Origin: an uncultured Flavobacteriaceae bacterium
GTDB taxonomy: Bacteria > Bacteroidota > Bacteroidia > Flavobacteriales > Flavobacteriaceae
NCBI GenBank assembly: GCA_943789365.1
Contig: CALSTV010000001.1
Span: 1,488,001 to 1,552,000, forward strand
DNA length: 64,000 nucleotides
Reading direction: 5' to 3'
Numbering within the stretch: the first letter of the stretch is position 1; every line of letters starts with the position of its first letter. Both the position numbers and the translations under genes were made by a program. The notes under the pieces were generated by a model, which saw only the letters and a list, made by a program, of their open reading frames with translations, did not search any database and was not told where the DNA came from. This document shows, in pieces, positions 16,129 to 39,500 of this stretch.

Positions 16129-16185
16129 ATTAATTACTCATGATTAAAAACACTATGGACTACCTACTAAATTTGGTACAAATCA

Positions 16186-16329: not shown

Positions 16330-16660
16330 AAACTTGCCTATACAAGTATCGTTTGGAACCGAAACTATTTCCTGTATTTACGATGCAACAGGCACAAAAC
16401 TAGCAAAAGTGGTCAACGAAAACGGACATAGCACAACAACCCAATACGCAGGAAACTATGTGTATAAAGAAGGTGTGTTGGAGTTTTTCAATACCCCAGA
16501 GGGGTATGTACAGCCCGTCATTGCAAGTCCTTCGACAAGCTCAGGACAGGCTGCCGAGCTAAGCTATATTTACCAATACAAAGACCATTTGGGTAATGTT
16601 CGCCTGAGTTATATGGTTTGTTGCGGGTTTATAAGTACTACTTTTTCGTATTATAACTGA
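16328..16660 (+). pseudogene. Third, truncated Rhs-core fragment
   Basis: Beginning at the transposase remnant, the frame reads as YD/Rhs sequence (CIYDATGTKLAKVVNENGHS...YVYKEGVLEFFNTPEGYVQPVIAS...YIYQYKDHLGNVRLSYM). It closely matches 13873-14150. Homology stops near 16614, after which the frame runs into an unrelated tail. No core end, toxin or immunity gene follows. It is a dead fragment. Confidence 0.75.
16527..16551 (+). repeat. REP-like element at the Rhs-core insertion site, copy 3
   Basis: GTCCTTCGACAAGCTCAGGA followed by CAGGC has GTCCT/AGGAC ends. It reads in frame as SPSTSSGQA. It is preceded by CAGCCCGTCATTGCAA, the beginning of the copy 1 element, so this site looks like one repeat inserted into another. 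Confidence 0.65.
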
Positions 16661-16711
16661 CCTTTATTTTATTATACATCTTTCGTTCAAGCACCTAAAC
16701 CGCTATTTTTT

Positions 16712-16737
16712 ACATAGATTGTTCTATGCCTTTTTTT
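16712..16737 (+). terminator. Intrinsic terminator closing the Rhs region
   Basis: CATAGA (16713-16718), loop TTGT and TCTATG (16723-16728) are followed by CC and seven Ts. It terminates plus-strand transcription just as the convergent hydrolase gene ends. Confidence 0.7.
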
Positions 16738-22654: not shown

Positions 22655-22685
22655 TAAAAACACCTACCAAAAAAATGGTAGGTGC
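22655..22685 (-). terminator. Intrinsic terminator at the end of the xylan operon
   Basis: On the minus strand, CACCTACC pairs with GGTAGGTG around an A/T loop and is followed by TTTTTATT. It ends the transcript whose last gene is the cytosolic GH43. A second palindrome (AATTAGCGA-AG-TCGCTAATT, 22692-22711) lies between it and the gene. Confidence 0.75.
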
Positions 22686-22732
22686 CAATGAATTAGCGAA
22701 GTCGCTAATTGATCCGGGGGGAATCAAAATCT

Positions 22733-23773
22733 TTATTTTTCTTTATATGGATTGATAGGAACAATGGTTCCATCTGTTCGATAGGTAATCTCCGTATATT
22801 TTACAGATCTCAAATGCGTAACTCCTTTCGAGAGTGAAGCATCGTGGTAAAACAAATAACTCTTGCCTTCTATTTCACAAACTGAATGATGTGAGGTCCA
22901 ACCTACTACCGGATTTAAAATTCTACCTTTATAGGTAAAGGGTCCATATGGATTGTCTCCTATTGCGTAACAAATAAAATGCGTATCACCTGTTGAGTAT
23001 GAAAAATAGTATTTTCCATTGTGTTTATGCAACCAGGCCGCCTCAAAAAAACGACGTGCATTGTCACCTGCCAACAACAAATCCCCTGCTTCATCGAGAA
23101 TTTCAAGTTGCTTTGGTTTTTCAGAAAACGCTAATAAATCGTCGGTCATTTTTGCCACCAACGGCAGCAGCGCAGGTTCATGGTCTTGAGGTAAAAATGC
23201 GGTGGGACTTTCAGGCTGGGCGGCATTAAATTGCCCTGTTCTCCATCTTTGTAATTGTCCTCCCCATAAGCCACCAAAATACATATAATAACTACCATCA
23301 TCATCTTTAAACACGGCTGGATCTATGGAGAAACTTCCTTTTATAGCTTCTGGTTGCGCCGTAAAGGGGCCTGTTGGTGATTTGCTAGTGGCTACACCAA
23401 TACGGAAAATACCATCGTGCGCCTTGGCAGGAAAGAACAAATAATAAGTGCCGCCCTTTTCATTGGCATCTGGTGCCCACATTTGTTGTTTTGCCCAAGG
23501 CACATCGTCAACATGGAGCGCTACGCCATGATCTACTGCTTTGCTTCCAATAGCATCCATAGAGATCACATGGTAATCTTTCATTGCAAAATGACTTCCT
23601 AAATCGTCAAAAGCCTCTCCTACGTCAATATCGTGAGAAGGATAGATATATATTTTCCCGTTGAAATAATGCGCCGATGGATCGGCCGTATAGATATGAC
23701 TAACCACAGGCTTTGAAATTGCCCGTCTGTTTAAATCTTCAAAATCAATATGATCAATACTATCTTCTGGCAT
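22733..23773 (-). CDS. GH43 beta-xylosidase/arabinofuranosidase, no signal peptide
   Basis: This 346-residue five-bladed propeller enzyme has the GH43 triad: Asp31 (YTADPSAH), Asp151 (FSIDPAVFKDDDGSYYMYFGG) and Glu244 (RRFFEAAWLHKHNG). It starts MPEDSIDHIDFED, with no signal peptide or lipobox, so it should act in the cytoplasm. The gene starts 10 bp after the GPH symporter stop. The arrangement suggests import of xylobiose or an arabinoxyloside followed by internal hydrolysis. It is a clear paralogue of the secreted GH43 at 28679-29752. Exact specificity cannot be set from sequence alone. Confidence 0.85.
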   Translation of the reverse strand: MPEDSIDHIDFEDLNRRAISKPVVSHIYTADPSAHYFNGKIYIYPSHDIDVGEAFDDLGSHFAMKDYHVISMDAIGSKAVDHGVALHVDDVPWAKQQMWAPDANEKGGTYYLFFPAKAHDGIFRIGVATSKSPTGPFTAQPEAIKGSFSIDPAVFKDDDGSYYMYFGGLWGGQLQRWRTGQFNAAQPESPTAFLPQDHEPALLPLVAKMTDDLLAFSEKPKQLEILDEAGDLLLAGDNARRFFEAAWLHKHNGKYYFSYSTGDTHFICYAIGDNPYGPFTYKGRILNPVVGWTSHHSVCEIEGKSYLFYHDASLSKGVTHLRSVKYTEITYRTDGTIVPINPYKEK

Positions 23774-23783
23774 TTCTTTGAAA

Positions 23784-25241
23784 TTATTTGGTTCTTCTTT
23801 CTTTTAGTTCTTTTTCTATTTGCACCTCTAAGCTTTTATTAATTTCATAGTAAAACAACAATGCAATGCTTATAAAAAACGGAATTGCAGGATATATACT
23901 CACAAGCATTTTCGTGCCTTGTACTGCACTTTCCGGCTGTATCAATACTTCTCCTGCTACAGCTGCTTCTTTTGTAATATATCCATAAAGACCGAGAATC
24001 CATGTCAACAAAGCACTTCCTATACTAAGCCCTCCTTTTAGACCAACCATCATGGCGGAAAAAATTATGGCAGTGGCTCTTCTGTTGGTTTTCCATTCGG
24101 AATAATCGGCAACATCGGCAATCATTGCCCAGAGCAAAGGAATGGTGAGCCCGTAGAAAAACCCGTGTACTATTTGAGCCGAAAACATCAAACCTACTGA
24201 AGTTGCAGCAAAGAAATAGAATACAACAATAAATAAGGTTGAGATAAACAAGGCGGCCATAAAAACGTCTCGTTTGCCATACGTATCTGCTAACTTTTTA
24301 GACAGCGTGATCCCTACGATCATAAAAATAATACCACCGGCATTGAACAATCCAAATCCTGCTGAAACAGGGTTTTCACCAAAAAAATTAAGTCCAATGC
24401 CCGCTAGGAAATCTAATATTGGTTGAATGAATTGGGTAAGGGCAATTTTATCTACATAGTTTTCAAAATAGTACACATAAGAGCCACCTTTCATAGCCAA
24501 GGTCACAAAAATTAAAGTTGTTACCATAAGAATAATTACCCAAGGTTTGTTTTGAAATAAATCTGCTAGGTCTTCCTTTACGCTCGATTTTTGTTCAGGA
24601 GTAGGTACTATTCGTTCTCGAGTTGTGATAAATGTGATTAATAACATAAGTGTTCCAATAATAGCAAGCCAGGTCATCACTATTTCAATACCAACAGCTT
24701 TATCGCCTCCTCCAGCGGTTTCAATAATAGGCAACATAAATACTTGCACAAAGAACTGTGCGAACATCACCGCTACAAATCGATAAGATGAGATACTGTT
24801 TCGCTCTCCCATATCTCCAGTAATTACCCCGCTCAAAGCCGAATAAGGCAAATTGTTTGCTGCGTACAATAACAATAATAATGTGTAGGTCACAACTGCA
24901 TAGATAACTTTTCCTTTATACGAAAAATCAGGAGTACTAAAAGCCAATAACGAAATAACACCAAGTGGTACAGCCGTATAGAGAATCCAAGGTCTAAATT
25001 TACCCCATTTTGACATTGTTCTATCGGCAATTGCCCCAATAATTGGGTTGAACCCAAAAGCGGCAATCAAGCCTACAATTAACATGATAGCAGAAGCATG
25101 ATTTGCTTCCAGTCCATAGATATCTGTATAAAAATAAGCCAGATAGGTCATTAAGGTTTGAAATACCAAATTGGCCGCCAAGTCTCCCAAACTATAGCCT
25201 ACTTTTTCTTTAATGGATAATTTTTGTGCGGTCGTATGCAT
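23784..25241 (-). CDS. GPH-family glycoside:cation symporter
   Basis: The 485-residue, 12-helix transporter belongs to the glycoside-pentoside-hexuronide family. It opens with KEKVGYSLGDLAANLVFQ and has the IIGAIADRTMSKWGKFRPW loop typical of MelB/XynB-like members. It sits between the GH10 xylanase and the cytosolic GH43, so xylo-oligosaccharide or xyloside uptake across the inner membrane is the best guess. No TonB-dependent SusC partner is in the window, so outer-membrane uptake must be provided elsewhere. Confidence 0.85.
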   Translation of the reverse strand: MHTTAQKLSIKEKVGYSLGDLAANLVFQTLMTYLAYFYTDIYGLEANHASAIMLIVGLIAAFGFNPIIGAIADRTMSKWGKFRPWILYTAVPLGVISLLAFSTPDFSYKGKVIYAVVTYTLLLLLYAANNLPYSALSGVITGDMGERNSISSYRFVAVMFAQFFVQVFMLPIIETAGGGDKAVGIEIVMTWLAIIGTLMLLITFITTRERIVPTPEQKSSVKEDLADLFQNKPWVIILMVTTLIFVTLAMKGGSYVYYFENYVDKIALTQFIQPILDFLAGIGLNFFGENPVSAGFGLFNAGGIIFMIVGITLSKKLADTYGKRDVFMAALFISTLFIVVFYFFAATSVGLMFSAQIVHGFFYGLTIPLLWAMIADVADYSEWKTNRRATAIIFSAMMVGLKGGLSIGSALLTWILGLYGYITKEAAVAGEVLIQPESAVQGTKMLVSIYPAIPFFISIALLFYYEINKSLEVQIEKELKERRTK

Positions 25242-25268
25242 GCTTTATAGTGTCTTTTATTAGGTTTG

Positions 25269-26390
25269 TTATTGCAGTTCTAACAAGCTCGAATAGGCTT
25301 TTTTTGGTTGGTAATTCCTATCGAATAGCAGCGGGTAATTGGTACGTTGCTTTATTGGAAAATCATTAAGCCATGAGTTTTTATCGGATATTCCCCAAAA
25401 AGTAACTCTGTCAATTTTATCTTGGTGTTTTACAAACAGTTTAAATAGTTCTTGGTAGCGTGCTGCCAATGCGTCTTGAACTTGGTCTGGTAAACCTTTG
25501 GAATACGGGTCCATTGTTTTATCACCTATGTATTTTTCAAAATTCTGACTAACCTCTGCGCCAACCAATTCCCATGGATTTGGCAATACTGATATGTCTA
25601 GTTCCGTAAAACTAACCTGCACACCCAATGCGGCATAGGTAAGTATGGTTTCTTCTATTTGTTGGATTGATGGCTTTTTTAAATCCCAATGTGCTTGTAT
25701 GCCTACTCCGTCAATCCTTGCGCCATCTGCTTGTAGTTGTTTTACCAAACGCACCACTCCTGCTCGCTTTTTAGGATGGCAAATATTGTAATCGTTATAC
25801 ATAAGTTTGGCATTCGGGTCGTACTGTGCTGCCCATTTAAAAGCCTGTGAAAGATAGCCCTCTCCAAGTACGTTTAAAAAGACGGATTGACGCAAATCCC
25901 CATTTTCTTTCAACGCTTCATTTACTACATCCCAAGTACCAATTTTCCCTTTGTATCTCGACACTACCGTCTGTATGTGATTGTGAATGTAACTTGCCAT
26001 TTGGGCACTGTCCTGCTCCTCTTTCATAAATGCCGCCAATTGCGAGTGCCAAACCAATGTATGTCCTATTATATGTGCATTGATTTTTTCTCCTAAGGCC
26101 ACATATTTGTCGGCCATCTTAAAATCAAATACATTGGGTTTTGGTTGCAGGAACATCCATTTCATACAATTTTCAGGAGAAATGGTATTAAATTCTTTTT
26201 CTAGAATTCGATTCCCCTTTGTATCTGAACCCTTGATTTGACGCTCATTTAAAGCGGCTCCCACATAAAACTGGTTCTTAAAAACAGTCTGTAATGAATT
26301 CGACTCTTTTGTTGTATTCTGACTTTGATTGATATGCTTTGCACAACTTAAAACGAGCAGTCCCAGGGCAAGTAATATTATTTTTTTCAT
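25269..26390 (-). CDS. GH10 endo-xylanase lipoprotein
   Basis: The protein has a lipoprotein signal (VLSCAK). The GH10 barrel shows FNTISPENCMKWMFLQP, HTLVWHSQ, WDVVNEALKENG (acid/base Glu, residue 158 from this start), YNDYN and VSFTELDIS (nucleophile Glu263). The ATG at 26390 is preferred over a TTG three codons upstream. The mature enzyme is a single domain of typical GH10 size, surface-exposed, cutting beta-1,4-xylan internally. It is the strongest evidence that the locus targets xylan. Confidence 0.92.
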   Translation of the reverse strand: MKKIILLALGLLVLSCAKHINQSQNTTKESNSLQTVFKNQFYVGAALNERQIKGSDTKGNRILEKEFNTISPENCMKWMFLQPKPNVFDFKMADKYVALGEKINAHIIGHTLVWHSQLAAFMKEEQDSAQMASYIHNHIQTVVSRYKGKIGTWDVVNEALKENGDLRQSVFLNVLGEGYLSQAFKWAAQYDPNAKLMYNDYNICHPKKRAGVVRLVKQLQADGARIDGVGIQAHWDLKKPSIQQIEETILTYAALGVQVSFTELDISVLPNPWELVGAEVSQNFEKYIGDKTMDPYSKGLPDQVQDALAARYQELFKLFVKHQDKIDRVTFWGISDKNSWLNDFPIKQRTNYPLLFDRNYQPKKAYSSLLELQ

Positions 26391-26408
26391 CTTTATCAAC
26401 TATTAACC

Positions 26409-26442
26409 AGAGCATTCGATGCTCTCTGTTGTTACAAAACTA
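26409..26442 (-). promoter_or_regulatory. Intergenic hairpin and possible internal promoter before GH10
   Basis: AGAGCAT-TCG-ATGCTCT (26409-26425) is a perfect stem-loop, and the minus strand carries TAGTTTTG at 26435-26442 (TAnnTTTG consensus). The nearest TTG is about 26 bp away, longer than usual. The site could separate expression of GH10-GPH-GH43 from the upstream genes. Confidence 0.35.
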
Positions 26443-26509
26443 AAAATCTAAGGAGTACTTGGCTATCACAAAATGAGCAAATACTATCAAAATTGAGTAA
26501 AAGTATACA

Positions 26510-28675
26510 TTACATCTTAACAAAACGCATTGTTTTAGGACCTCTGGCTCCATCTATTTTAATCAGATAGAGACCTAATGGCAAATGCGCAATTTCTAGC
26601 GTTCCTTTTCCATTAAGTATGTTTAGGTTGCCAACTGACATATACAGTTTTCCTCTAGCATCGAAAATCGTAATTTGATCACTTCTTGAAATTCCTTGAA
26701 CACTAATGGTACTTTTAGCAGGATTTGGATATACAAAAGTTGAAGCAGTATTTTCAAAAGCATCGACCGACAAATTTTCTAGATGATCGGCTGTACCGTT
26801 TCCATCCAAATCTACAGATTCATAGGCACCAATATCTATAAGTGTTACGCCTCTGAGATTGTTTTCAAAATCGAATGTTGGTGTGTATTCAGCGGCTGTT
26901 GTACCACTGAATAGCAACATTCCTGAATTTGCAATTCCTGTGTCTAGTGCCGCACTGTTAGCACTGAGTCTAAAATCAAAATTCGATTCATCTACAAATC
27001 CTGGATTTGCATTGATCATACTAGTTACACCTCCTGCATTGGATTGACCGTTATAGGAAATATTATTCTTTCCTTTGATGTTTGAAGTAGCCCCAAATAC
27101 ACGGTAGCTATAATCGGTCGTAAATCGAGTCCAACTAATATTGTTATAAATTCGAACTTCTTTCGAGTTGTTAATTGCAATCCCCCCAGCTGCTTGGCGT
27201 CCTTCAGACAAAGGAACTGCTCCATTGTTGTATATGGTATTGTTAACCACAATTGAATAATCCGATTTATGCACTACCAAACCATTGATGCCATTTCCGT
27301 AGGCAATATTGTTGGCAAAATAAAAATACCCTGTATATTGTCCATTTGGGTTTTCATCATTTTCACCTGTACCTCTATCATTGTTCCTTGTGATATAACA
27401 TCCTGATCCATCTATGATATTTGGGAAATCAGGACAGCCATAATCACTTGTGTTAGAACAGTCGTAATTATGGTTAAAATAATGTATCTTATTGAGGTTA
27501 TCATATACCCTGTTTTTGGTAATCCGCATTTTTATTTTCTCCTTGTTATCAAATGATTTGGATTGCGCCAACACCACAGCACTCGATCCAGAGGATGTCC
27601 AAAGGGTACAGTTGTACACTTCATTATTGGTGAGTATGCAATAATCTGAATTGTTAATCCGTACACCAGAACCAGGACAGTCATATACCTTATTGCTATG
27701 CAGTGTCACGTGATGTCCTCCACCGGAAGCCCAAACAGTAATTCCCATTCCTTTGTAATAGGTGTTCTGAATCAAACGATAGCTCTCTGCTGCTTCTTTG
27801 GTAATTTGCTGACTAGGTCCTTGTATTTCAAATCCTGAAATCTCTAAGTGTATTCCGGTTCCGCAAACGAAGCCACCCGAACCATCGAATTCTATTTTGG
27901 GCGTATGTCCTGGGTAATTTCGTATCACCAACGGACCATTTAAGGTACCTGCTTTGTTTATGTTTACCAAAGCACCATTGTCAATTTCTCCATTTCCATA
28001 GCCCGAATTACGATAGGTACCATCCATGACATAAATAATATCCCCTGTAGTCCAAGAAGACACTGCTTTTGAGATTGATTTATAGGGTGTAGTCATATCA
28101 TTTCCGGCATTGGTATCTGAGCCATTATCGTCTACATACCAAGTGGTAAATCCACCTGATTTTACTACAATTTCATAAATGCCTTCTTTTAAAAAATTAA
28201 ATTTTATTCTTCCTTCAGAAGTGGTTACATCTGAGGTTAAAGTCAGCGTATAAAATGTCCATTCGTCTAAACGTACTTGTTGGGTTTGCGATGTAATATT
28301 TACCAAAGCATCCATAAGCGTTACTTTAAACTCATTTCCAACAGTTCCTTTGGCATAAAACGAAATGGTATATTCCTGACCGCCAATCAAATTAAAATAA
28401 CAATCGGCCGAATTAAACATACGCACTTCCCACGGGCTATCGACTGTTACGTTAACTTTCAAAGATGCGTCTCCGTAGTAGGTACCTTCTGAAGTTACTG
28501 TATAAGAAGCATTACCTTCAGAGGCGTTAAACCAATTGGAAGCAAAAGTAGGTTGATTTGTAAAACTTCCAATACCACCAGTATCTAAGCATTGTGCATT
28601 CACGGAAAGCATCACTAAAAGAAATACTATAAAACTCATGTTAAATAGTTGCTTGCGTACAGTACGTTTTCCCAT
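26510..28675 (-). CDS. Secreted right-handed beta-helix protein with type IX sorting domain
   Basis: The 721-residue protein has a signal peptide ending VNAQ. A CenC-like carbohydrate-binding beta-sandwich covers about residues 30-165 (NASEGNASYTVTSEGTYYGD... YTISFYAKG). A beta-helix begins at TWYVDDNGSDTNAGNDMTTP, with DUF1565-like repeats (GFEIQGPSQQ, VTLHSNKVYDC, YCILTNNEVYNC, FYFANNIAYGNG). The last ~75 residues form a type A T9SS sorting domain (VYPNPAKSTISVQG...PLGLYLIKIDG). Beta-helix folds occur in polysaccharide lyases, GH28-like hydrolases and esterases; I cannot identify the active site. It is probably a surface enzyme for the sulfated or uronic-acid part of the glycan. Confidence 0.75.
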   Translation of the reverse strand: MGKRTVRKQLFNMSFIVFLLVMLSVNAQCLDTGGIGSFTNQPTFASNWFNASEGNASYTVTSEGTYYGDASLKVNVTVDSPWEVRMFNSADCYFNLIGGQEYTISFYAKGTVGNEFKVTLMDALVNITSQTQQVRLDEWTFYTLTLTSDVTTSEGRIKFNFLKEGIYEIVVKSGGFTTWYVDDNGSDTNAGNDMTTPYKSISKAVSSWTTGDIIYVMDGTYRNSGYGNGEIDNGALVNINKAGTLNGPLVIRNYPGHTPKIEFDGSGGFVCGTGIHLEISGFEIQGPSQQITKEAAESYRLIQNTYYKGMGITVWASGGGHHVTLHSNKVYDCPGSGVRINNSDYCILTNNEVYNCTLWTSSGSSAVVLAQSKSFDNKEKIKMRITKNRVYDNLNKIHYFNHNYDCSNTSDYGCPDFPNIIDGSGCYITRNNDRGTGENDENPNGQYTGYFYFANNIAYGNGINGLVVHKSDYSIVVNNTIYNNGAVPLSEGRQAAGGIAINNSKEVRIYNNISWTRFTTDYSYRVFGATSNIKGKNNISYNGQSNAGGVTSMINANPGFVDESNFDFRLSANSAALDTGIANSGMLLFSGTTAAEYTPTFDFENNLRGVTLIDIGAYESVDLDGNGTADHLENLSVDAFENTASTFVYPNPAKSTISVQGISRSDQITIFDARGKLYMSVGNLNILNGKGTLEIAHLPLGLYLIKIDGARGPKTMRFVKM

Positions 28676-28678
28676 TAT

Positions 28679-29752
28679 TTATTCGATTAATGTGTTTAGG
28701 GCTTTCATCGTCCCGTCGTTATTGTAAAAAATTTCAGCAACTTTTACATTTCTTAAATTTGTTTGGTTTGACAGTTGAATGTCGTGGTAAAACAAATACC
28801 ATTTCCCTTTTATTTCGACAACCGAATGATGATTGGTCCATCCTTTAACTGGATGATTTAATATGCCTTTAAAGGTGAACGGCCCATATGGATTATCACT
28901 CATGGCATACACGATATAGTGCGTATCTCCTGTCGAATAACTCAAATAATACTGCCCGTTTCTTTTGTGCATCCAGGCTGCTTCAAAAAATCGCTTATCG
29001 TTATCTTTTGTAAGAATTGGGCTTCCGTCCGAATCTACTATTTGAATTTCTTTTACCTCTTCAGAGAACCCCAGCATATCCTCGGATAGTTTGACAATTC
29101 TTGGACCAATTGCTGGTGCATTAGGTTGTTCATTGTCTTTTTTATCACAATCTGCAGGTGTATATTTATTTTTATCCCAATGTTGAACTTGCCCTCCCCA
29201 TATACCTCCAAAATACATATAGAAGCTGCCGTCTTCATCTTCAAAAACGGCAGGATCTATACTATAACTGCCTTCAATAAAAGTTGGTTGGGCTGTAAAG
29301 GGCCCTTCAGGTCTATTGGAAACTGCCACACCAATTCTAAAAACATCTTCTTTGTCTTTTGCAGGGAAGTACAAATAATACTTTCCATTTTTTGTGGCGG
29401 CATCTGCCGCCCATAACATTCTTTTTGCCCAAGGAACCTCTTTGAGAGGTAAAGCAACCTCGTGCAATGTTACAGGTCCTCCAATACTGTCCATAGAGAA
29501 TACTGTATAATCGGTCATGCTGTATTGACTACCGCAGTCTCCTGGTATGCGTTCACTATTTATATCGTGTGAAGGGTATACATAAATTCTATTTTCAAAA
29601 ACATGTGCAGACGGGTCTGCTGTATAGATTTCAGAAACCAACGGTTCATTTAAAAACTTAGTACTTCTAGTTTCGCTTGCCCGATTATTTGGCTTACAAA
29701 AGGTCAAGACTAACCATCCAATTCCAACAAGCACATACCTACACTTCACCAT
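28679..29752 (-). CDS. GH43 enzyme, secreted lipoprotein
   Basis: The 357-residue protein has a lipoprotein-like leader (VLTFC, Cys19). The GH43 triad is Asp46 (EIYTADPSAH), Asp166 (YSIDPAVFEDEDG) and Glu257 (RFFEAAWMHKRNG). It matches the cytosolic GH43 at 22733 through most of its length, with an insert near 205-215. The pair would act on the two sides of the inner membrane: this one trims side chains or ends outside the cytoplasm. It is four bases from the beta-helix gene, so co-transcribed. Confidence 0.85.
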   Translation of the reverse strand: MVKCRYVLVGIGWLVLTFCKPNNRASETRSTKFLNEPLVSEIYTADPSAHVFENRIYVYPSHDINSERIPGDCGSQYSMTDYTVFSMDSIGGPVTLHEVALPLKEVPWAKRMLWAADAATKNGKYYLYFPAKDKEDVFRIGVAVSNRPEGPFTAQPTFIEGSYSIDPAVFEDEDGSFYMYFGGIWGGQVQHWDKNKYTPADCDKKDNEQPNAPAIGPRIVKLSEDMLGFSEEVKEIQIVDSDGSPILTKDNDKRFFEAAWMHKRNGQYYLSYSTGDTHYIVYAMSDNPYGPFTFKGILNHPVKGWTNHHSVVEIKGKWYLFYHDIQLSNQTNLRNVKVAEIFYNNDGTMKALNTLIE

Positions 29753-29765
29753 CTACTCCTACGAT

Positions 29766-31043
29766 TTAGTCTTTTAAAATTTTTTCGCTTCGGACCCCTC
29801 CAGACATTAGTTTTACTTGCACGATATATACTCCTGACGCAAGTTCAGAAACATCTACAGTGTTTCCTCCTACTTGTGCAATTACTTTTGACCCTACGAC
29901 ATTGTAGATTTCAACTGTTGCTACTTCTGAATCAGCTGTAATATTTAATGTAGTACTCACTGGATTTGGATACAAACCTACAGAAGCTGCTACATTTTCA
30001 TCTACACCCAAGTAAGTAGAGGTAAACATGATTTGTTGAACGTGAATCGTCCCAGCAGATTCTGTTATGGCAACACCTCCTTCCCCGTTATCCGCCTCTT
30101 CTATAAACTGCAACTTATAACCATTTTGTTCACCTGTCCAATTGGTTAAATTACTTAAATCGAAATCTATTGTTTGTACGGTTATTGGGTCATTAGCAGG
30201 TATATTGAACACCGAAGCATATTCTGCAGCGCCAGATGGGGATACAAAAGTTATTTTATTTTTAGGCGAATCGTTAATTATTTTAATTCTCAAACCTTTA
30301 TTTGCTGTTCCATCCACAGCATACAAGCCACTTTGCGTAAGATTCGGATATTTATTACTACCATCGATAGTTACTTGTAGGGTTCCCGCTACTGGTTGCG
30401 ATAAGCTTACCCCATTTGCCCCTACAAATCCTTCTGTATCACTGGCACTGTCAAATGTAAAATCGGAACGTGGTGTAGAGGGTACTTCTTCTAAAAATTC
30501 TATTTTCTCAATGATAAAACCACCTTCAGAACTAGCAATGGCAAACCCACCGTTATTGTTATCGGCTAATACTACAGACATATGGTCAAAATCCGTTTCA
30601 GAATCCCCTCCGTAATCGTAGTTCTTCCATTGTGCATTTGTCAAATCAAAATAATAGGTTTTAGACGGCCCTTTGCTTACGTTAAAAAACGTATAACGTG
30701 TATTTGTTCCTGCTGAACTCAACGGATCCGTACCTGTATTTGCTTTAAAATGTAGAGCTCTTACTCTTTCTACCTCATCGGAATCATTAATTACTGTAAT
30801 GGCGAATATTTTATAGAGGCTGGCATCTACATTCAAGTTTTGATGTGTTATTTTTGGTTTGGCATCTCCACTTCCGTTCCATGAAATAGCCAATCCATCC
30901 GAAACTATACTCGCATCGCTAGCACCACCTGCTTTCACCCATCCAAGCGCGTCTTGAGAATTTTTAAAATCGAAGGTTACCTGAGAGAACAGGCTTATAC
31001 TCATAAAGAATAGCAGTACGTTTAAAATGTAATTTTTCATCAT
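29766..31043 (-). CDS. Type IX-secreted protein with two carbohydrate-binding-like modules
   Basis: The 425-residue protein has a signal peptide ending FSQ. Two ~150-residue beta-sandwich-like modules follow, each opening with a similar phrase: VTFDFKNSQDALGWVKAGGA, and FTFDSASDTEGFVGANG. Both carry KI-type strands (ITVINDSDEVERVRALHF / LRIKIINDSPKNKITFV) and a late FDL segment (YYFDLTNAQW / IDFDLSNLTNW). A type A T9SS sorting domain follows (LYPNPVSTTLNITADSEVA...ELASGVYIVQV). No catalytic motif is visible. A surface glycan-binding role is inferred from the duplication and context. It may stand in for the absent SusD/SusE-type binding proteins. Confidence 0.65.
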   Translation of the reverse strand: MMKNYILNVLLFFMSISLFSQVTFDFKNSQDALGWVKAGGASDASIVSDGLAISWNGSGDAKPKITHQNLNVDASLYKIFAITVINDSDEVERVRALHFKANTGTDPLSSAGTNTRYTFFNVSKGPSKTYYFDLTNAQWKNYDYGGDSETDFDHMSVVLADNNNGGFAIASSEGGFIIEKIEFLEEVPSTPRSDFTFDSASDTEGFVGANGVSLSQPVAGTLQVTIDGSNKYPNLTQSGLYAVDGTANKGLRIKIINDSPKNKITFVSPSGAAEYASVFNIPANDPITVQTIDFDLSNLTNWTGEQNGYKLQFIEEADNGEGGVAITESAGTIHVQQIMFTSTYLGVDENVAASVGLYPNPVSTTLNITADSEVATVEIYNVVGSKVIAQVGGNTVDVSELASGVYIVQVKLMSGGVRSEKILKD

Positions 31044-31080
31044 AGTTTGTGTTATTTTAGGTTATTATATCTAGTTATCA

Positions 31081-31635
31081 TTATTCTTTTAGCACAGTTA
31101 CATCATCAATAAAATAGGTAGTACCCTCTTCCAAATACCAAAATTTGATTTGGTTTTTATCACTGGTATTTGGCACCATGAACATATGTGAATAGGGCTG
31201 CCATTCTTCACTCAATCGGAACTGTTTGTTTTGAAAACTCCCTTTGACATCCGATTGAAAAACCAACCCTAGTTTTCCAGTTCCTTTTGGTCCTCGTTTA
31301 GCGAAAAAGGTGACAGTGTATCCTTCGCCTTGCTTTACTGGAAATGCATTGCTAAAAGCAGTACTTACAAACCAGGGTTTTTCTCCAACTTTTCCTACAG
31401 TTACTTTTAAGGCTTTGGTACTCCCCTTATTTACATCTGTTGTCTCTATAGAAAAAGTGGCTCTACCTGTTTTTTTCGCCTGATTTGCCCACCAATAAAA
31501 AGTGCCTGTTTTTTTGTTAACACCTTCTAAGTTACTGTTTTTTATAGCCAAGGCTTGCGAATGTATACTCGCAATTGAGAAAAGACAACTTACCAAAAGA
31601 CTAGTATATATGCTAAAATTTAGATTCATTTTCAT
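31081..31635 (-). CDS. Secreted CenC-like (CBM4/9-type) carbohydrate-binding protein
   Basis: The 184-residue protein has a signal peptide ending IHSQA, then a single beta-sandwich. The pattern NSNLEGVNKKTGTFYWWANQ, KALKVTVGKVG, YTVTFFAKRG, EEWQPYSHMF and TYFIDDVTVL is that of CBM4/9/22-like modules. The final DDVTVLKE strand completes the domain, so the module stands alone with no enzyme. It probably binds the polysaccharide at the surface. A small inverted repeat (GATTCG-aagttag-CGAATC, 31655-31673) lies in the gap upstream of its start. Confidence 0.65.
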   Translation of the reverse strand: MKMNLNFSIYTSLLVSCLFSIASIHSQALAIKNSNLEGVNKKTGTFYWWANQAKKTGRATFSIETTDVNKGSTKALKVTVGKVGEKPWFVSTAFSNAFPVKQGEGYTVTFFAKRGPKGTGKLGLVFQSDVKGSFQNKQFRLSEEWQPYSHMFMVPNTSDKNQIKFWYLEEGTTYFIDDVTVLKE

Positions 31636-31731
31636 TCTTGTATTGTTGGTATATGATTCGAAGTTAGCGAATCGATGTGTTTATCTCTATCACAAATGAA
31701 GACAAGACTAATACATTTGAGGATACTTGTT

Positions 31732-33213
31732 TTATTTCATTGGATCCTCGTTTACATGTTCACGCATTTTCTTTAGTTTACTTTTGTATTTTTTCACCAA
31801 AGAGGCATTGCGCTCAATTTTCGATATATCTGTATTTTGCTTGCCATCTTTATGAAGGTCATAGAGCATGTTACCCAAATATTTTTCGCCTCTGTAAAAC
31901 TCTGTATAGGAATAATCTTTGTCGATAACTGCTTCTCCTTCTTTATATCGGGTATACACTTCCGTTTTTAGAATTGTGGATGGGTCTTCTAAGACAGGAA
32001 CTAAACTTTTACCTTGTAAATATTCGGGAGCCTCTATATTGGTCAACTCGCACAAGGTTGGGTATACATCTACTAATTCTGTAAAAGACTGTGCTTTTTT
32101 GTTCTTTGAGTGTTTTGGTGAAGAAATTAGCAAAGGAATTTTAACGGCTTCATAAAATGTACTGTGCTTACACCAAAACCCATGCTCGCCTAGGAAAAAC
32201 CCATGATCGCTCCATAAAATCACAGTGGTATTCTCTCGCAATCCTAAATCATCTAAAGACTGTAAAACCTCTCCTATCAGGGCATCCATATAACTTACAC
32301 TTGCATAATAACCATGTATCAAATTGCGTGACATTTCATCACTCAGATTTCCTGTTTTTGGGATATCCAAATACATATTCCGCAATTCTGAAGAAAAATG
32401 CTGTGACTGTATAGCAATAAACGGTGCATTATTAGGATAGTATGCATTGTCTGCCAACTGAATCTTATCGTGATCATAGAGGTCCCAATATTTTTTAGGC
32501 TGAATAAATGGCAAATGCGGAGCCACATAGCCTAATGCCATAAAAAACGGCTTATTTTGATCTTTTAATTCTCCCAATTTTTTAACGGCTCTTTGTGTTA
32601 CTTTTCCATCGTTATAAGCATAGTCGTCTACATCTGGATATTCAACAACAGGTCCCTTATTCCCGTGTGATCCCTTTTCTCCTGTTCGTTTTCGCTCAAT
32701 AGCAACCGGATCTTGATAGTCGGCTTGATGTGCTCCCCCATCTGTAACTGTCCAATGCTGTTCATGGTCGTCTGGATGGTGGTAAATTTTCCCATAGGAA
32801 ATAGATTCATAGCCATTGTTTTTAAACAGTTGATTTAAAGGAATGGCATTTGGAGCATCTACTGAGGCACGGGTTCTATAATCGTTAAAGCGTGCTTCAC
32901 TTGGCCTAATTCCAGTCATGATACTTGCTCTACTTGCTCCACAAACGGCAATATTTGTAAAGGCATTGTCGAACTGAATGCCTTCTGCTGCCAGTTTATC
33001 GATGTTTGGCGTGATCATTTTTGTTTCTCCATAAGAACTTATTTTAGGTCTAAAATCGTCTACTGAAATAAACAAGATATTTTGTTTTTGATTTGTATTT
33101 GTGACCTCTACCTCCTTAGATTTCGAATTGGTTTTAGCCGTTTTACAGGCCACAACTATTGCAGCTGTAATACAGATTCCCAGGACTATTTTTGTAGTTG
33201 AAACTATTTTCAT
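31732..33213 (-). CDS. Sulfatase (S1 family), CxASR type, lipoprotein
   Basis: The 493-residue protein starts at the ATG at 33213, 7 bp after the previous gene; the longer frame to 33255 would overlap that gene by 35 bp and spoil the lipoprotein signal (IVVACKTAK). NILFISVDDFRPKISSYG gives the metal-binding start. The modification motif is Cys91-G-A-S-R, the less common alanine version seen in iduronate-2-sulfatase-like enzymes. WSDHGFFLGEHGFWCKHS is the late metal/substrate motif of that group. It would desulfate a uronate or pentose unit of the target glycan. Confidence 0.85.
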   Translation of the reverse strand: MKIVSTTKIVLGICITAAIVVACKTAKTNSKSKEVEVTNTNQKQNILFISVDDFRPKISSYGETKMITPNIDKLAAEGIQFDNAFTNIAVCGASRASIMTGIRPSEARFNDYRTRASVDAPNAIPLNQLFKNNGYESISYGKIYHHPDDHEQHWTVTDGGAHQADYQDPVAIERKRTGEKGSHGNKGPVVEYPDVDDYAYNDGKVTQRAVKKLGELKDQNKPFFMALGYVAPHLPFIQPKKYWDLYDHDKIQLADNAYYPNNAPFIAIQSQHFSSELRNMYLDIPKTGNLSDEMSRNLIHGYYASVSYMDALIGEVLQSLDDLGLRENTTVILWSDHGFFLGEHGFWCKHSTFYEAVKIPLLISSPKHSKNKKAQSFTELVDVYPTLCELTNIEAPEYLQGKSLVPVLEDPSTILKTEVYTRYKEGEAVIDKDYSYTEFYRGEKYLGNMLYDLHKDGKQNTDISKIERNASLVKKYKSKLKKMREHVNEDPMK

Positions 33214-33220
33214 TTTCTTT

Positions 33221-34882
33221 TTATTTTGATGTAATTTTTGATGCTTTGAATCCAATTCTAATGGCTCTCGCCGCTATTTTCTGATTTTTTGTCAGTTTGA
33301 TAGGACTGTGGTACAGATTCCAGTGTTTGCTTCCAATTTCTTTGTCTAATTGATATCCTATGGAAGCTCCTTCTGTAGTGCTCTCTAATACGATTTTGCC
33401 CCTTTTTTCATTTTTAAAGATTACCTCCGAAGTAACAGGTTGTAAAAATTCTGGCCAAAATAACTGAATGAGGTCGTGCTCTGGTATAAAACCTTTATCT
33501 CCTATTTCCAACTGCCAATTGGCCAATGCTTTTCTAAAGTTGGTCATACGTTCGGCATGATTAGGATTATTTGCCAAGTTGTGTACTTCGTACGGATCGT
33601 TTTTCAGGTCGTACAATTCTTCATTTGGCTTGGTGTCCATAAAAATATAAGCGGCATCGCCTGAGAGTTCTTTGTTTCGATCCATGGCAATGAGTTTTGC
33701 ATTCATGGTAATTTGCTCACGGTACTTATTCCTGTAAATCAATGGTAAATGCGGCAAGAAATTTTTAATATACACATAACGACCATCCAGCACAGAGCGT
33801 TGCATATCGGTTACCTCATCAAAGCGATCGGCACTACCAAAGGCAAAGTTTCTAGGGGTTTGTTCATAGGTTCCTGAAAATGCTTTTCCATCGTAATGCT
33901 CGGCTGGCTTGATATTTAATAAAGAGAGCATTGTTGGTCCTAAATCCATCAGTGATACAATTCTATCATCTACGGTTCCTGCCCTTTTTTTATCTGGATA
34001 CCTAACAATTAAGGGCACATTCAACCCGCTGTTCCCTACGGCGCGTTTCTGTCGTAAAAGGTTACCTCCATGATCACTCCAAAACACAATGATGGTATTG
34101 TCTAGCAAATTATCTTCTTCCAACTCCTTTAGCAATTCTCCAACTTGTCGATCCATTTCCTCAATATTGGAATATTTCCTGGCAATGTCGTTTCTCACTT
34201 CTGGAATGTCAGCAAAATAATCGGGTACAATTACGTCTTCAGGTTGTACGGTAAGGGGTTCATCTTTGCGCATCCAAATTCGAGATTCGTGAGTAACCAT
34301 AAAATTACGCACATAAAAGAAGGGCTTATCTTTGGGGCAATCTCTATAACTTACAGTAGAAGACACCTCGTCCCAAGCTGTAAATGGCGCATTGAACTGA
34401 TAGTCACATTTAAAATTATTGGCGCAGTAATACCCTTCTCTTCTTAAGGTTTCTGTAAAGCAATGTACGTTTGAAGGTGGAACAACCTCATATTCTGGAA
34501 CGTTTCTCCCTGTTTTATCTCGTACGCCAATATAAGTATTGTGCTTTACCTCTTCAGGGGTTTTGTAGTTATGGTAGTCTCCTGTACGCATATTCTGTGC
34601 ACCCAATCTTGTGGCATACATGCCTGTAATTATAGAGAATCTGCTCGGAGCACAAACACCCACTGTAGAATAAGCATGCGTATAACGCACTCCTTCTGCG
34701 GCTAACTTATCTAAGTTAGGCGTTTTGATGACCGGATTTCCATAGACTCCTAAAATAGGGCCCATATCCTCTGCGCTTAACCAGACGACATTCAAAGGTT
34801 TCTTTTTTTGTGCTGATATCTGAATTGTACCTCCGCAAACAAATAAGAGTATAAGAAGTTGTATCTGTTTCATCATCCTCAT
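33221..34882 (-). CDS. Sulfatase (S1 family), secreted
   Basis: The 553-residue protein has a signal peptide ending ISAQ. It starts NVVWLSAEDMGPILGVYGNP and has the formylglycine site Cys77-A-P-S-R with SIITGMYATRLG after it. FWSDHGGNLLRQKRAVGNSG provides the C-terminal metal site. A ~90-residue beta-sandwich-like tail (KIVLESTTEGASIGYQLDKE...LTKNQKIAARAIRIGFKAS) resembles the C-terminal domain often added to Bacteroidota sulfatases. It is tightly packed between the two other sulfatase genes, one base from the upstream one. Confidence 0.87.
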   Translation of the reverse strand: MRMMKQIQLLILLFVCGGTIQISAQKKKPLNVVWLSAEDMGPILGVYGNPVIKTPNLDKLAAEGVRYTHAYSTVGVCAPSRFSIITGMYATRLGAQNMRTGDYHNYKTPEEVKHNTYIGVRDKTGRNVPEYEVVPPSNVHCFTETLRREGYYCANNFKCDYQFNAPFTAWDEVSSTVSYRDCPKDKPFFYVRNFMVTHESRIWMRKDEPLTVQPEDVIVPDYFADIPEVRNDIARKYSNIEEMDRQVGELLKELEEDNLLDNTIIVFWSDHGGNLLRQKRAVGNSGLNVPLIVRYPDKKRAGTVDDRIVSLMDLGPTMLSLLNIKPAEHYDGKAFSGTYEQTPRNFAFGSADRFDEVTDMQRSVLDGRYVYIKNFLPHLPLIYRNKYREQITMNAKLIAMDRNKELSGDAAYIFMDTKPNEELYDLKNDPYEVHNLANNPNHAERMTNFRKALANWQLEIGDKGFIPEHDLIQLFWPEFLQPVTSEVIFKNEKRGKIVLESTTEGASIGYQLDKEIGSKHWNLYHSPIKLTKNQKIAARAIRIGFKASKITSK

Positions 34883-34883
34883 T

Positions 34884-36302
34884 TTAATAGTGTAGTTTTA
34901 TATAATCGTCTGCTGTTAATTTGCCTTTTAAATTGCTAGGCACCTTGTTCCATTTTGAATTTCTATCTAAAGGGTGTAGTGTCGGTTTTAACAAAGGCAT
35001 TTTGTGATGTACTAAAAAGTCGTCTTGTGAAATCATCCAGGCTTCCAACACCTCTGCTAAGTGTTCTTTTTCCTTTTGGTAATTTTTGTTTTTTGCCAAA
35101 TTCTTCTTTTCATAAGGATCCGTTTTTAAGTCATATAGCTCTTCAAAAGGTTTTTTGGGAAAAGCTTTCGCTCCTTTTTCAATAAAGGCATTGACAAATT
35201 CATTGTCTCCTAAATTGTTTTCAACCACTTCTATCGAATTGTAGTTTCGAATATATTTGTATTGTTTGCCACGCACCATTCGTGAAGGAAACACCTTACA
35301 ATGTTGTATGTTTTGTTTGGTGGCAATTCCAAAAATATAATCGTGAATCGATGCTTCCTCTCCCTGAAGTGTTCTATAAAAACTCTTCCCATCTAAATAA
35401 TCTGGTATGGGTACATCTATAATGTCTAAAAAGGTAGGCAGTATATCTATTAAGGAAACCAAAGTATTTGAGGCTGAATTCGCCTTTATTTTCCCAGGCC
35501 ATTTTACAACAAGTGGCACTCTGAGTCCTGGCTCTGAGACACCCCATTTTCCCGAAATACCGTGATCTGATGCATAGACGAATACACTGTTTTTCTCGAG
35601 TTTGTACTTGTCTACCATGGCTACTATCTTTTCCAATTGCGCATTGTCATTTTTTATGTTTTGGTAATAACCGGTTTTATACGCAGCAGGCTTGTGCGAA
35701 GTATACGGCAATTTAAAAATGTCATTTGCTGTATATTCAGTTTCCTTAGCATAGGGACCATGAGGATAGTCTGAAGCGATAAATAAACAAAACGGTTTGG
35801 TCGCTTCTTTTAAGTAGGTATCGATATCTTCTAAAGGCAAAAAACGATGATTAACGGAAGGAAAGTAATGTGTCCAATCAAAAACATCGTTGGGTTTTAC
35901 ATGGCTTTTTCCTGCTAACACAACTTCATAGCCCGCCTCTTTTAAATAAGTCGTCACACTGGAAACGGACGGTTTTACTCCAATATGATTTGCAAAACAA
36001 CCATTTTTAATTGCGTACAACCCTGTATATATTTGAGAACGACTTGGCGCACAGATGGATTGTGCTACATAGGCGTTTTGAAAACGCATGCCTTCTTTTG
36101 CCAGTTTATCCACTGCAGGTGTATATACCTTTGGATTTCCATAGCAGCCATAGTCTAGCTGATCTTGATCATCTGCTAGGTAGAAAATAAAATTAGGGGT
36201 AGGTTTTTTGTTCGATTTCACAACAAATGTATGCTGAACACTTGCACTCAACAAAAAGGTTGACAGGATAACTAGACACAAGGACATAGTTGATTTTTTC
36301 AT
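34884..36302 (-). CDS. Sulfatase (S1 family), first gene of the xylan operon
   Basis: The protein has 472 residues from the ATG at 36302; the frame extends to 36329. The 36302 start gives a clean signal peptide (MKKSTMSLCLVILSTFLLSA), and a TAATTTTG promoter-like box overlaps 36327-36334, which would put the longer start outside the transcript. FIFYLADDQDQLDYGCYGNP and Cys84-A-P-S-R with QIYTGLYAIKNG identify the family. YASDHGISGKWGVSEPG is the second metal motif. It heads a likely ten-gene operon running to 22733. Confidence 0.87.
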   Translation of the reverse strand: MKKSTMSLCLVILSTFLLSASVQHTFVVKSNKKPTPNFIFYLADDQDQLDYGCYGNPKVYTPAVDKLAKEGMRFQNAYVAQSICAPSRSQIYTGLYAIKNGCFANHIGVKPSVSSVTTYLKEAGYEVVLAGKSHVKPNDVFDWTHYFPSVNHRFLPLEDIDTYLKEATKPFCLFIASDYPHGPYAKETEYTANDIFKLPYTSHKPAAYKTGYYQNIKNDNAQLEKIVAMVDKYKLEKNSVFVYASDHGISGKWGVSEPGLRVPLVVKWPGKIKANSASNTLVSLIDILPTFLDIIDVPIPDYLDGKSFYRTLQGEEASIHDYIFGIATKQNIQHCKVFPSRMVRGKQYKYIRNYNSIEVVENNLGDNEFVNAFIEKGAKAFPKKPFEELYDLKTDPYEKKNLAKNKNYQKEKEHLAEVLEAWMISQDDFLVHHKMPLLKPTLHPLDRNSKWNKVPSNLKGKLTADDYIKLHY

Positions 36303-36326
36303 GTTTTTTAAATTAGAAAAGTTACT

Positions 36327-36383
36327 CAAAATTACATTCCAACTTCTAAAAAGACTAACACTTTTGAGGATTGTACTAGTACA
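36327..36383 (-). promoter_or_regulatory. Possible promoter of the xylan operon and 12-bp palindrome
   Basis: On the minus strand, TAATTTTG lies at 36327-36334, without a good TTG. Upstream of it TGTACTAGTACA (36372-36383) is a perfect 12-bp palindrome. It is a candidate binding site for the divergent hybrid regulator. The 36330-36557 gap holds no gene. Confidence 0.4.
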
Positions 36384-36502
36384 TTTCAGTCAAAACACCT
36401 GAATTAATCTTTTTAACACTTAACTGATTGTGTTTTGGTTCTTAAATTAGGAGGAATCACCATTAGTTAAATTACTCTAAGAGAATTTTTCCAGATTCAA
36501 AA

Positions 36503-36557: not shown

Positions 36558-39500
36558 TTGAATTCAATTCTTCGTTTTCTATGTTGCTTTTTAGTTTGTT
36601 CTCCAATGTTACTTTCACAGGAGAAATTTGAGGAGCTAACATTTAACGCTGTAAACTCTAACATGAGTTCTAGGGCAATAACAACCATTGTTAGAGATGA
36701 CCAAGGTTTTATTTGGATTGGAACTTATGGCGATGGCTTGTATAAATTTGATGGCATAGACACTGAAAACTACAGCTACAATTGGAACGACACTAAATCG
36801 CTAAACAGCTCGAAAGTTGAAGTCTTGTTTGTAGATAGTAAAAATCAAATGTGGGTGGGAACCGACGAAGGACTGAATCTTTACGACAGGAATTCAAATG
36901 CATTTATTTCTATTCCTTTTGACACAAAAAACAAGAAAGTACCGGTTCATGCGATTGCAGAAACCGATGACAAACAATTGTTGATTGGCACCCATATGCA
37001 CGGCCTTTTTTCTGTGAATCTTGAAAACAGAAATGTTGGTAAAATTTCTTCAACACAAAACCAAACTTTCCAATATTTTGAAATAAACGCCATTTTAAAA
37101 ACGAGAAAAGGCGGTATTTTACTCGGCACAAACAAAGGAGTGTTTTCCTATATACCTTCTGAAAACTCCTACAAATACGCCATTTTTGAAACTTTAAAAG
37201 GAAAGGATTCGATAGTAGCACCTATTGAGAGTATGATTGCCATAAAAAATAAATTATGGTTAGGTACAAATGCAGAAGGTTTGATAGAAATAAAAACCGA
37301 CCCCACCAATCACTACCAACTAAAACAACATCGAATTACCAACAAACGCATCCTTACTATGGCGCAAAACAAAGAAGGCTTGCTCTTTTGTGGTACGGAG
37401 AATGATGGATTATTTGCGATAGCAAAGGAAGGTGAAACGGTAAAAAACTACCAGTACAAGTCTTCAGATAAATACGGTCTCAAATCGAATTCCATTTGGT
37501 CGCTGTTTATCGACCCCGAAGATAGAATGTGGGTAGGTTATTACAACAATGGCTTGGACGTTGTAGATAAAAATTACAGTAAATTTAAACAGATTGAAAG
37601 CATTGCAAATCAGCCTCAATCTTTAAATGCAAGTTCAGTAACCGCTATTGCAAAGGACAAAAACGAAAGACTTTGGATTGGAACCATTGAAGGAGGTGTC
37701 GATGTATACGATTTAAAAAACAACACATTCACCCATCTTGTAAACCAAAAAAACAAGATTGCTAAAGGACTCAAAAGTTTAGATGTGCAAACTGTATTTA
37801 TAGACAGTCGCCAAAATATTTGGGTGGGTACATGGAGTTCAGGTCTCTATTTCTTAAAAAATGGCAGCGAGCAATTTGTAAATTGGAATTTGAGCAATAG
37901 CCGTCTCAAGTCGAATAGAATACTCACTTTTGATGAAGATTCTAAGGGTCTTATTTGGATTGGCTCTTTTGGAAGCGGAGTGTATTCGTACAACCCAACA
38001 CAAAACCAACTTACACATTATAATTCTGATTCATTTGCTGCTTTAAACATCCATTCAGGATACGTCCGCAAACTTTTAGTCGATGCCAACGATCATATCG
38101 TATTGGGTACACGCAAAGGCTTGTACAAAATAAAAAAAACAAACGGGAGTTACGAGGTAAGCGCTCTTAATAATAACATTAGAAATCGTTTGCAAGAAAA
38201 TAGAAGTCAGTATATCATCACTTCAATTTTTGAAGACAGTCAAAATAAGTTATGGCTAGGTACAGATGGATATGGTCTCTGTGTTTACGACGCAAAAAAT
38301 GAGAATGTAACTTGGTTCAATCAAACAAACGGCCTTATTCACAGCACTGTTGGTTGTATCACAGAGGCAGACAATGGGTCGATCTGGATTGGAGGTAATA
38401 GAGGGCTTTCAGAATTAAATCCTAGTACACAGACCTTCATCAATTACAATAGTCAAGACGGACTCCTGTCTAACAATTTTAATTACAATGCCGTTTTTAA
38501 AAACAGCAATGGAGATCTTTATTTTGGAAACTATGGAGGTATCAACTACTTCAACCCCAAAAACAGCAATCGGAACAAACTAAAACCTCAAGTGTACCTC
38601 ACCGGGTTAAAGTTATTTAACAAACCCGTTACACCTACAACCGAAAATACACCTTTGGAAAAACACATTTCCGAAACACAGGAAATTACGCTGAAACACG
38701 ACCAGTCTGTTTTTACCATAGAGTATGTAGGAATCAATTATACCCATACAGAACAGAACCATTATGCATACTATCTAGAAGGTTTTGAAAAAACATGGAA
38801 TTATGTAAACTCAAACAGAACGGCAACCTATACAAATATTCGTCCTGGAACCTATACCTTTAAAGTAAAAGCTGCAAATAATGATGGTGTTTGGAATGAA
38901 ACCCCCACAACACTTCGCATTCGGGTTTTACCTCCTTGGTGGAAGAGTCATATTGCTATTGTACTATACATATTAGCGCTCTTGGGATTGAGCTATTTTG
39001 TTCGTCGATTTAAAAACGAACGCGAAAACAAAAAGAGAATTATAAAAAATCAACAGGAAGAACGCAAACAAATTGAAGTTCTAAATGCTAAAAAAATACA
39101 GTTCTTTACGAATATTTCTCATGAATTCAGAACACCTTTAACGCTAATTTTAAATCCTTTGGAAGACATCCTCGACAATGCTACATTACAACTTCCTCCC
39201 GAGGTGAAAGAGAAACACCAAACGATACATAAAAACACCAAAAGATTATCGCGATTGATCGATGAACTGATGGACTTTAGAAAGTTACAGTTCAATAAAA
39301 TGACTTTAAAAGCATCAAAAATTCAAACAAACACCTTTGTCTCAGAAGTTGCGAGCTATTTTGAGGAAGAAGCACTGCAAAGAAACATTATTCTTTCTGT
39401 GGAACCCGATGAACACATGAAGGAACTTTGGGCAGATCCTTCCATGCTGGAAAAAATCATTTTTAACATCCTTTCTAATGCCTTTAAAGCGACTCCAGAA

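Follow-up and report, generated by a model that had tools for sequence, protein, structure and literature searches.

The sulfatase operon and the absence of a local importer

How a glycan would cross the outer membrane is the question raised by an operon in a 64,000-nucleotide stretch of DNA from an uncultured Flavobacteriaceae bacterium (GenBank assembly GCA_943789365.1, contig CALSTV010000001.1, positions 1,488,001 to 1,552,000 of the forward strand), hereafter called the window. The operon encodes three sulfatases, glycoside hydrolases (GH) of families 10 and 43 and a GPH symporter, and it has no SusC/D pair. Judging from sequence comparisons, we consider it likely that this operon is one half of a sulfated-xylan system residing in two loci, with a distant SusC/D pair as importer and a hybrid two-component system (HTCS) regulator as common switch. 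The reading rests on gene content, the gene clusters of relatives, the SusC clade and a common promoter motif, all observed in sequence data. Features of the operon, in order of transcription, and of the DNA beyond its 3′ end are listed below (T9SS, type IX secretion system; CBM, carbohydrate-binding module); signal sequences of the operon proteins were judged by eye.

34884..36329, minus: sulfatase a, which opens the operon with an ATG at 36302 (PF00884, E 2.1e-43; best solved match 9bb9, S1_8A, E 5.1e-37)
33221..34882, minus: sulfatase b (PF00884; best solved match 9bb9, S1_8A, E 1.5e-75)
31732..33255, minus: sulfatase c, SULF_c (PF00884; best solved match 6hhm, E 4.9e-88; second 5fql, 4.1e-59)
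31081..31635, minus: small CBM_4_9-like protein (PF02018, E 4.8e-4, below the Pfam cut-off)
29766..31043, minus: T9SS-tailed protein (PF18962) with predicted beta-sandwich domain(s)
28679..29752, minus: first GH43 (PF04616, E 1.8e-30), likely lipoprotein signal, lipobox read by eye
26510..28675, minus: CBM, right-handed beta-helix and T9SS tail in one protein (PF02018, PF13229, PF18962)
25269..26399, minus: GH10 xylanase (PF00331, E 1.7e-102), likely lipoprotein, matching endoxylanase structures
23784..25241, minus: GPH symporter (PF13347, E 7.9e-74; TIGR00792 above cut-off)
22733..23773, minus: second GH43 (PF04616), xylosidase-like; best solved matches 5glk, 6xn0 and 4mlg
22659..22686, minus: terminator-like hairpin at the operon end, 11-pair stem and T-tail
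20976: GH29, beyond the operon 3′ end
19210: fourth sulfatase, beyond the operon 3′ end

Pfam matches agreed with the first-pass annotation of the window, which had placed three sulfatases, GH10, two GH43, a GPH symporter, a beta-helix protein and two binding-like proteins in one likely operon. The C-X-P/A-S-R...TG motif is retained in all four sulfatases of the window, and the GH10 retains WDVVNEA and FTELD, which we take to be its catalytic motifs. The T9SS-tailed protein is a candidate surface glycan-binding protein: in its predicted structure (pLDDT 62) the first domain is closest to CBM-like folds (Z ≤12.5), and outside the tail no solved relative was found except for one insignificant match. 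The family profile of the beta-helix protein matched a rhamnogalacturonan lyase as well as CBM domains of xylanases; the modelled fold of the protein (pLDDT 64) is close to Pel9A (Z 28.7), one among many beta-helices. The small CBM_4_9-like gene is likely to start a second transcription unit, and the second GH43, with no signal peptide visible by eye, is predicted to be cytoplasmic. GH29 and the fourth sulfatase do lie just beyond the operon, as had been noted, but they probably form a separate unit because the terminator-like hairpin (22686-22659) lies between and because the clusters listed for relatives contained no gene with either of them as best match. A single terminator-consensus match is no proof of a terminator, given 22 matches observed against 13.0 +/- 3.1 in shuffled sequence.

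The absence of SusC/D at the operon was borne out by zero SusD (PF07980) and zero TonB-plug (PF07715) matches in the window; no TonB-dependent receptor was found there by plug match, and the locus lacks the SusC/D pair of a canonical polysaccharide utilization locus (PUL). The genome as a whole (3.73 Mb, three contigs) contains 11 SusD matches, 32 plug matches (31 above cut-off) and 78 sulfatase (PF00884) matches, which merge to 76 genes. Four of the 78 contain a stop codon within the matched frame. Of the 76 genes, 18 have a SusD gene within 20 kb and 40 lie more than 50 kb from one; for five of the ten groups of at least three sulfatases, including that of the window, the distance to the nearest SusD exceeds 40 kb. 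It is ordinary in this genome for a sulfatase group to lack SusC/D. Chance clustering in a sulfatase-rich genome was considered and rejected because relatives conserve both the order and the identity of the genes.

Relatives' loci and a distant SusC/D pair

A contig scan with three sulfatase-a orthologs yielded 25 loci, of which 24 (58-65% identity) were kept and one, an unrelated actinobacterial match, was dropped. The titles of the kept loci name Flavobacteriaceae, Polaribacter, Formosa, Flavobacterium or Bacteroidetes metagenome-assembled genomes. Sulfatases a, b and c, GH10 and the GPH symporter recur in the same order in relatives. Nineteen loci extend far enough in the upstream direction to be informative, and in 18 of them a SusC/D pair directly precedes a GH30/GH59-like gene and sulfatase a, counting L099 and L119, in which SusD alone is upstream and the contig ends; five loci (L100, L104, L109, L110 and L120), cut too early upstream, were left out of the 19. 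In L098 one additional sulfatase intervenes. The exception is L106 (genome G043), where an HTCS occupies the upstream place and SusC/D lies at the opposite end of an uninterrupted cluster, with further sulfatases, GH3, a sulfatase-GH10 fusion and GH5 in between. Both gene sets also form a single cluster in G200 and G210 and lie within ~35 kb of each other, with other genes between, in G199 and G213; the loci of G165 and G366 are of mixed form and include SusC/D, and in G055 the pair is directly upstream. In G357 an HTCS adjoins sulfatase a, but the contig, of 7,890 bases, is too short to judge SusC/D. G207, a candidate second split genome, was set aside as uninformative because its SusC is the last gene before a contig break and sulfatase a is on a different contig. 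G202 carries two copies of the locus (L101, L102); in the L102 copy the GH30-like frame is short and the beta-helix and GPH frames are split. Among six genomes of the genus, sulfatase a was detected at E ≤1e-100 in the present one alone, which may reflect either a recent gain by this genome or losses from the other members.

The counterpart of the relatives' SusC/D was found in a second carbohydrate locus, with susC ~540 kb from the window operon and the two gene sets ~510 kb apart.

C1:961-998 kb: locus 2, a second carbohydrate locus with SusC/D
C1:966206-970896: distant SusC/D pair, inside locus 2, with susC at C1:967726-970896
C1:991418-994042 (L043:6419-9043), minus: sulfatase-GH10 fusion, both domains in one protein

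The SusC of G046 had its best match in the present genome at C1:967729-970884 (54% over 1,077 residues; second match 34%), and its SusD was 48% identical to the adjoining SusD, compared with 22-32% for the ten others. The in-cluster pair of G043 is closer still, with identities of 64% (SusC) and 58% (SusD). In a SusC tree of 39 rows, the distant SusC grouped with that of G043 (100/99) within a 20-row clade (100/100) from relatives' loci. A SusC 49-65% identical to the distant one occurs in 23 of the 24 relative genomes, as partial pieces only in three of them; G202 has two, in its duplicate loci, and G217 has matches of only 35-36%. Because the genome has a SusC/D pair that falls in the expected clade and shares a promoter motif with the operon (see below), uptake is probably provided from the other locus, an option that the first-pass annotation had left open. 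The genome does have ten other pairs or SusD genes, any of which might be proposed as the importer, but this is highly improbable: all ten of the corresponding SusC rows fell outside the sulfated-xylan clade, several on long branches, and no further motif site scoring >18 was found in the stretches scanned around them.

The earlier suggestion of a monosaccharide or short-oligosaccharide route would mean that there is no cognate SusC/D at all, xylose and short xylo-oligosaccharides entering through general porins and the enzymes acting on products released by others. The local absence of SusC/D is in keeping with such a route, and the GPH symporter and the cytoplasmic-looking GH43 fit small sugars. 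We regard it as unlikely, since GH10, three sulfatases and T9SS-tailed proteins fit larger substrates and the genome has a same-clade SusC/D pair with a matching motif; with the distant pair as predicted importer, the route is no longer needed.

Locus 2 comprises two GH3, the SusC/D pair, an HTCS, five T9SS-tailed proteins (one of them a GH5), an esterase and four sulfatases including the fusion. The GH10 part of the fusion retains DVVNE and TEID. The fusion was matched in 21 of the 24 relative genomes, over both domains in 12 and over the sulfatase part only, up to about residue 575 of 874, in nine; in G199 the matches are split across two adjacent genes. The T9SS-tailed protein of the window shares 37% and 33% identity with two of those in locus 2; BLAST similarity to a third is confined to the tail. 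This family (window 29766-31043; L042:10943-12205 and 15973-17169) has a predicted CBM-like beta-sandwich, occurs in both loci and in relatives, and has Pfam matches to the tail alone.

A shared promoter motif and the regulator beside the operon

A 37-bp matrix was built from 11 sites in relatives, located before susC and, in G043, also before the GH30-like gene. Its consensus, TTGCTTCAAATGTGATACTAATTTCCTCAAATGTTAT, repeats TCAAATGT at a period of 21. A scan of 399,007 bases of the present genome ranked the distant susC promoter first (C1:971058-971094, score 37.9), followed by two sites in the window, which also contains the divergently transcribed regulator and xylose genes.

31689..31725, minus: 37-bp direct-repeat motif before the small CBM gene (score 18.8, rank 2; exact pattern match)
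36357..36393, minus: 37-bp direct-repeat motif before sulfatase a (score 18.3, rank 3; exact pattern match)
36558..40682, plus: HTCS regulator with Pfam matches to propeller sensor, kinase, receiver and AraC-type helix-turn-helix in one chain
41029..42507, plus: xylulokinase-like FGGY kinase (PF00370), with homologs in relatives' clusters
42623..43954, plus: xylose-isomerase-like protein (PF01261, E 6.7e-7, below cut-off)
44019..45437, plus: sugar transporter of the major facilitator superfamily (PF00083, E 7.1e-126)

Homologs 73-82% identical to the xylose-isomerase-like protein adjoin xylan genes elsewhere. At the far end of the window, an open frame of 2,176 aa (57470-64000, minus) reaches the window end.

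Twenty column-permuted matrices gave no matches >18 in the present genome, compared with three for the real matrix; in 1.35 Mb of relatives' sequence they gave 0-2, compared with 40, of which 12 were training sites or a near copy. Leave-one-out scores of the training sites were 16.3-41.2. With duplicates included, relatives had 45 matches >18 (15 being training sites or copies), and 42 of these were followed, 48-292 bases downstream, by a gene labelled by its best match as susC, GH30-like, beta-helix, T9SS-tailed, sulfatase a or b, esterase, sulfatase-GH10 fusion or xylulokinase; one precedes the susC of a plain-xylan locus (G189). The remaining matches comprised two before unlabelled genes and one at a stretch end beside a fusion gene. 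From the labelled genes, the motif is common to both gene sets and to xylose catabolism in relatives. A 20-base pattern had exact matches genome-wide only at the three own sites from which it was read; with one mismatch it gave 16 matches in total, compared with 17 for a backwards control, so the 13 inexact matches are noise.

Several observations weigh against the two-locus reading or weaken the counts behind it. The 24 relatives are not independent: L101 and L102 come from one genome, the SusC of L112, L117 and L118 are nearly equal, and L105 and L106 are contigs of G046 and G043, whose sulfatases served in the query. The window operon lacks the GH30/GH59-like gene of the relatives (typed there by Pfam). 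The motif was first spotted by eye in promoters that included those of the present genome, before the matrix was made from relatives alone, and two of 13 candidate promoters, both from G165, had no seed match and were excluded from the matrix; that genome has the same gene family and no site in its two promoters (scores -2.7 and 7.7). With scores of 18, the two sites in the window reach half the value of the distant susC promoter. The rank-4 site (16.9, minus) lies inside a gene of unknown function at C1:955646, unrelated to both loci as far as seen; rank 5 scored 13.2. In 4 Mb simulated under a Markov null and scanned on one strand, one match scored >18, from which ~0.2 would be expected by chance in the scanned stretch. 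Finally, locus 2 carries its own HTCS, which could drive the distant susC.

Among the window proteins compared with the GH30/GH59-like protein of G046, only the small CBM protein (171 residues) and, weakly, the beta-helix protein matched. The idea that the former is a remnant of a GH30-like gene was unsupported because separate 179-aa homologs exist in L117 and L118.

The second HTCS bears on the question of regulation. The window HTCS is 52-54% identical to the HTCS of G046 and G043 and only 31% identical to that of locus 2; this distance, together with the weak motif matches in the window, would suit two loci under separate regulators, the common motif being left over from a shared past. We give this explanation a minor share of the probability: in the 80 kb of G043 that were covered, only one HTCS, the ortholog of the window regulator, was labelled, and strong sites precede the promoters of both gene sets there. 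Direct repeats have been proposed as HTCS sites in Bacteroides (PMC3878776).

In the two-locus system that we infer, protein locations, binding by the window HTCS, co-induction and substrate are predicted from these comparisons. The products of locus 2 (T9SS-exported GH5, esterase, sulfatases, sulfatase-GH10 fusion and GH3) would attack the glycan at the surface, and the distant SusC/D pair would import it across the outer membrane. Sulfatases a-c, GH10 and the exported GH43 would then desulfate and cut the oligosaccharides in the periplasm, the GPH symporter would carry the products inward, and the cytoplasmic GH43 followed by xylose isomerase and xylulokinase would complete the breakdown. 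The HTCS beside the operon probably activates both halves through the 37-bp direct-repeat motif, a candidate operator before sulfatase a, the small CBM gene and the distant susC. The co-regulated SusC/D pair that the first-pass annotation proposed seeking elsewhere has a candidate at C1:966206-970896. A broader formulation, which we put forward tentatively and with somewhat less than even confidence, is that in this lineage the sulfated-xylan system is defined by a common HTCS operator and not by neighbourhood, so that modules and importer may separate or join and one SusC/D may serve modules scattered over the chromosome. If true, PUL surveys keyed on susC/D would miss such modules.

Substrate and comparison with known systems

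The substrate is probably sulfated xylan, as had been proposed from the sequence; this suggestion draws on a gene set that fits published patterns and on SULF_c being closest to 6hhm. By solved structures, the window GH10 has endoxylanase relatives and the GH43 at 22733..23773 xylosidase relatives. Another glycan with xylose 2-sulfate, such as ulvan, might be considered, since 6hhm is given as a 2-sulfo-D-xylose sulfatase that acts in ulvan degradation and an S1_8 enzyme of like specificity also acts on ulvan xylose (PMC9096561); PMC8360166 assigns the endo and exo roles of these two enzymes the opposite way. This alternative is unlikely, since the GH10 has endoxylanase relatives, locus 2 includes a GH10 domain too, and no ulvan-lyase or rhamnosidase family occurs among the Pfam matches of the operon. 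Sulfatase family alone is not decisive because S1_7 includes a carrageenan sulfatase too (PMC9096561).

Two sulfated-xylan patterns have been described in North Sea Flavobacteriia, at times combined within one PUL (PMC6794258). Pattern 2 consists of GH30, three sulfatases, PL9 (polysaccharide lyase) with CBM22, GH10 and GH43_1. The window operon, which resembles it, likewise has three sulfatases and GH10. Where the pattern has GH43_1, the operon has GH43 assigned by Pfam at family level, and where it has PL9-CBM22, a protein with CBM and beta-helix whose Pel9A-like fold is one among many. Unlike pattern 2, the operon has neither SusC/D nor a GH30-like gene, and a second GH43 and a T9SS-tailed protein are additional to it. 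Pattern 1, a GH10 with a sulfatase domain, GH3 and two more sulfatases, resembles locus 2, which holds the sulfatase-GH10 fusion, GH3 and two more sulfatases. In contrast to the published combinations, the two sets lie ~510 kb apart here. PUL136 of Formosa Hel3_A1_48 is also a sulfated beta-xylan PUL (PMC6298971). In the literature listings and passages searched, mainly PMC6794258 and PMC6298971, a split sulfated-xylan PUL was not mentioned, though this does not establish that none has been published. PMC12125979 was set aside because it concerns beta-1,3-xylan in Vibrio, a different system.

In plain xylan loci of the same family (G001, G129, G189, G011, G075 and G172), an HTCS 47-51% identical to that of the window also adjoins a GH10-GPH-GH43 core, but the core lacks sulfatases a-c and the nearby SusC/D belongs to another clade. 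HTCS regulons of Bacteroides (PMC3878776) are alike in regulator type, repeated short sites and some distant operons, and differ in regulators, motifs and substrates.

The relatives' counterparts of the window operon are half of a sulfated-xylan PUL type, which has been counted as one of the chief types predicted in algal blooms (PMC6794258). PULs are commonly located through their susC/D pairs (PMC5698469), and a search of that kind would leave the window operon unlisted. With a concrete importer, candidate operator and promoters named, the gap in uptake becomes a testable two-locus regulon.

The closest precedent is the carrageenan regulon of Zobellia galactanivorans, in which a PUL without susCD is accompanied by a distal susCD pair (PMC5698469). 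As there, relatives hold the pair inside the PUL (here 18 of 19), and the distal pair here is related to their in-locus pair (54% compared with 34%, and the SusC tree). The substrate and genes differ, and induction, binding and a mutant were measured in Zobellia, whereas the present case is built on sequence alone. By this comparison, the answer to the puzzle is a fairly ordinary one, a two-locus system with a distal SusC/D pair in an arrangement known from Zobellia carrageenan; what is new is the split arrangement for a sulfated-xylan system and the candidate operator that would tie its parts together.

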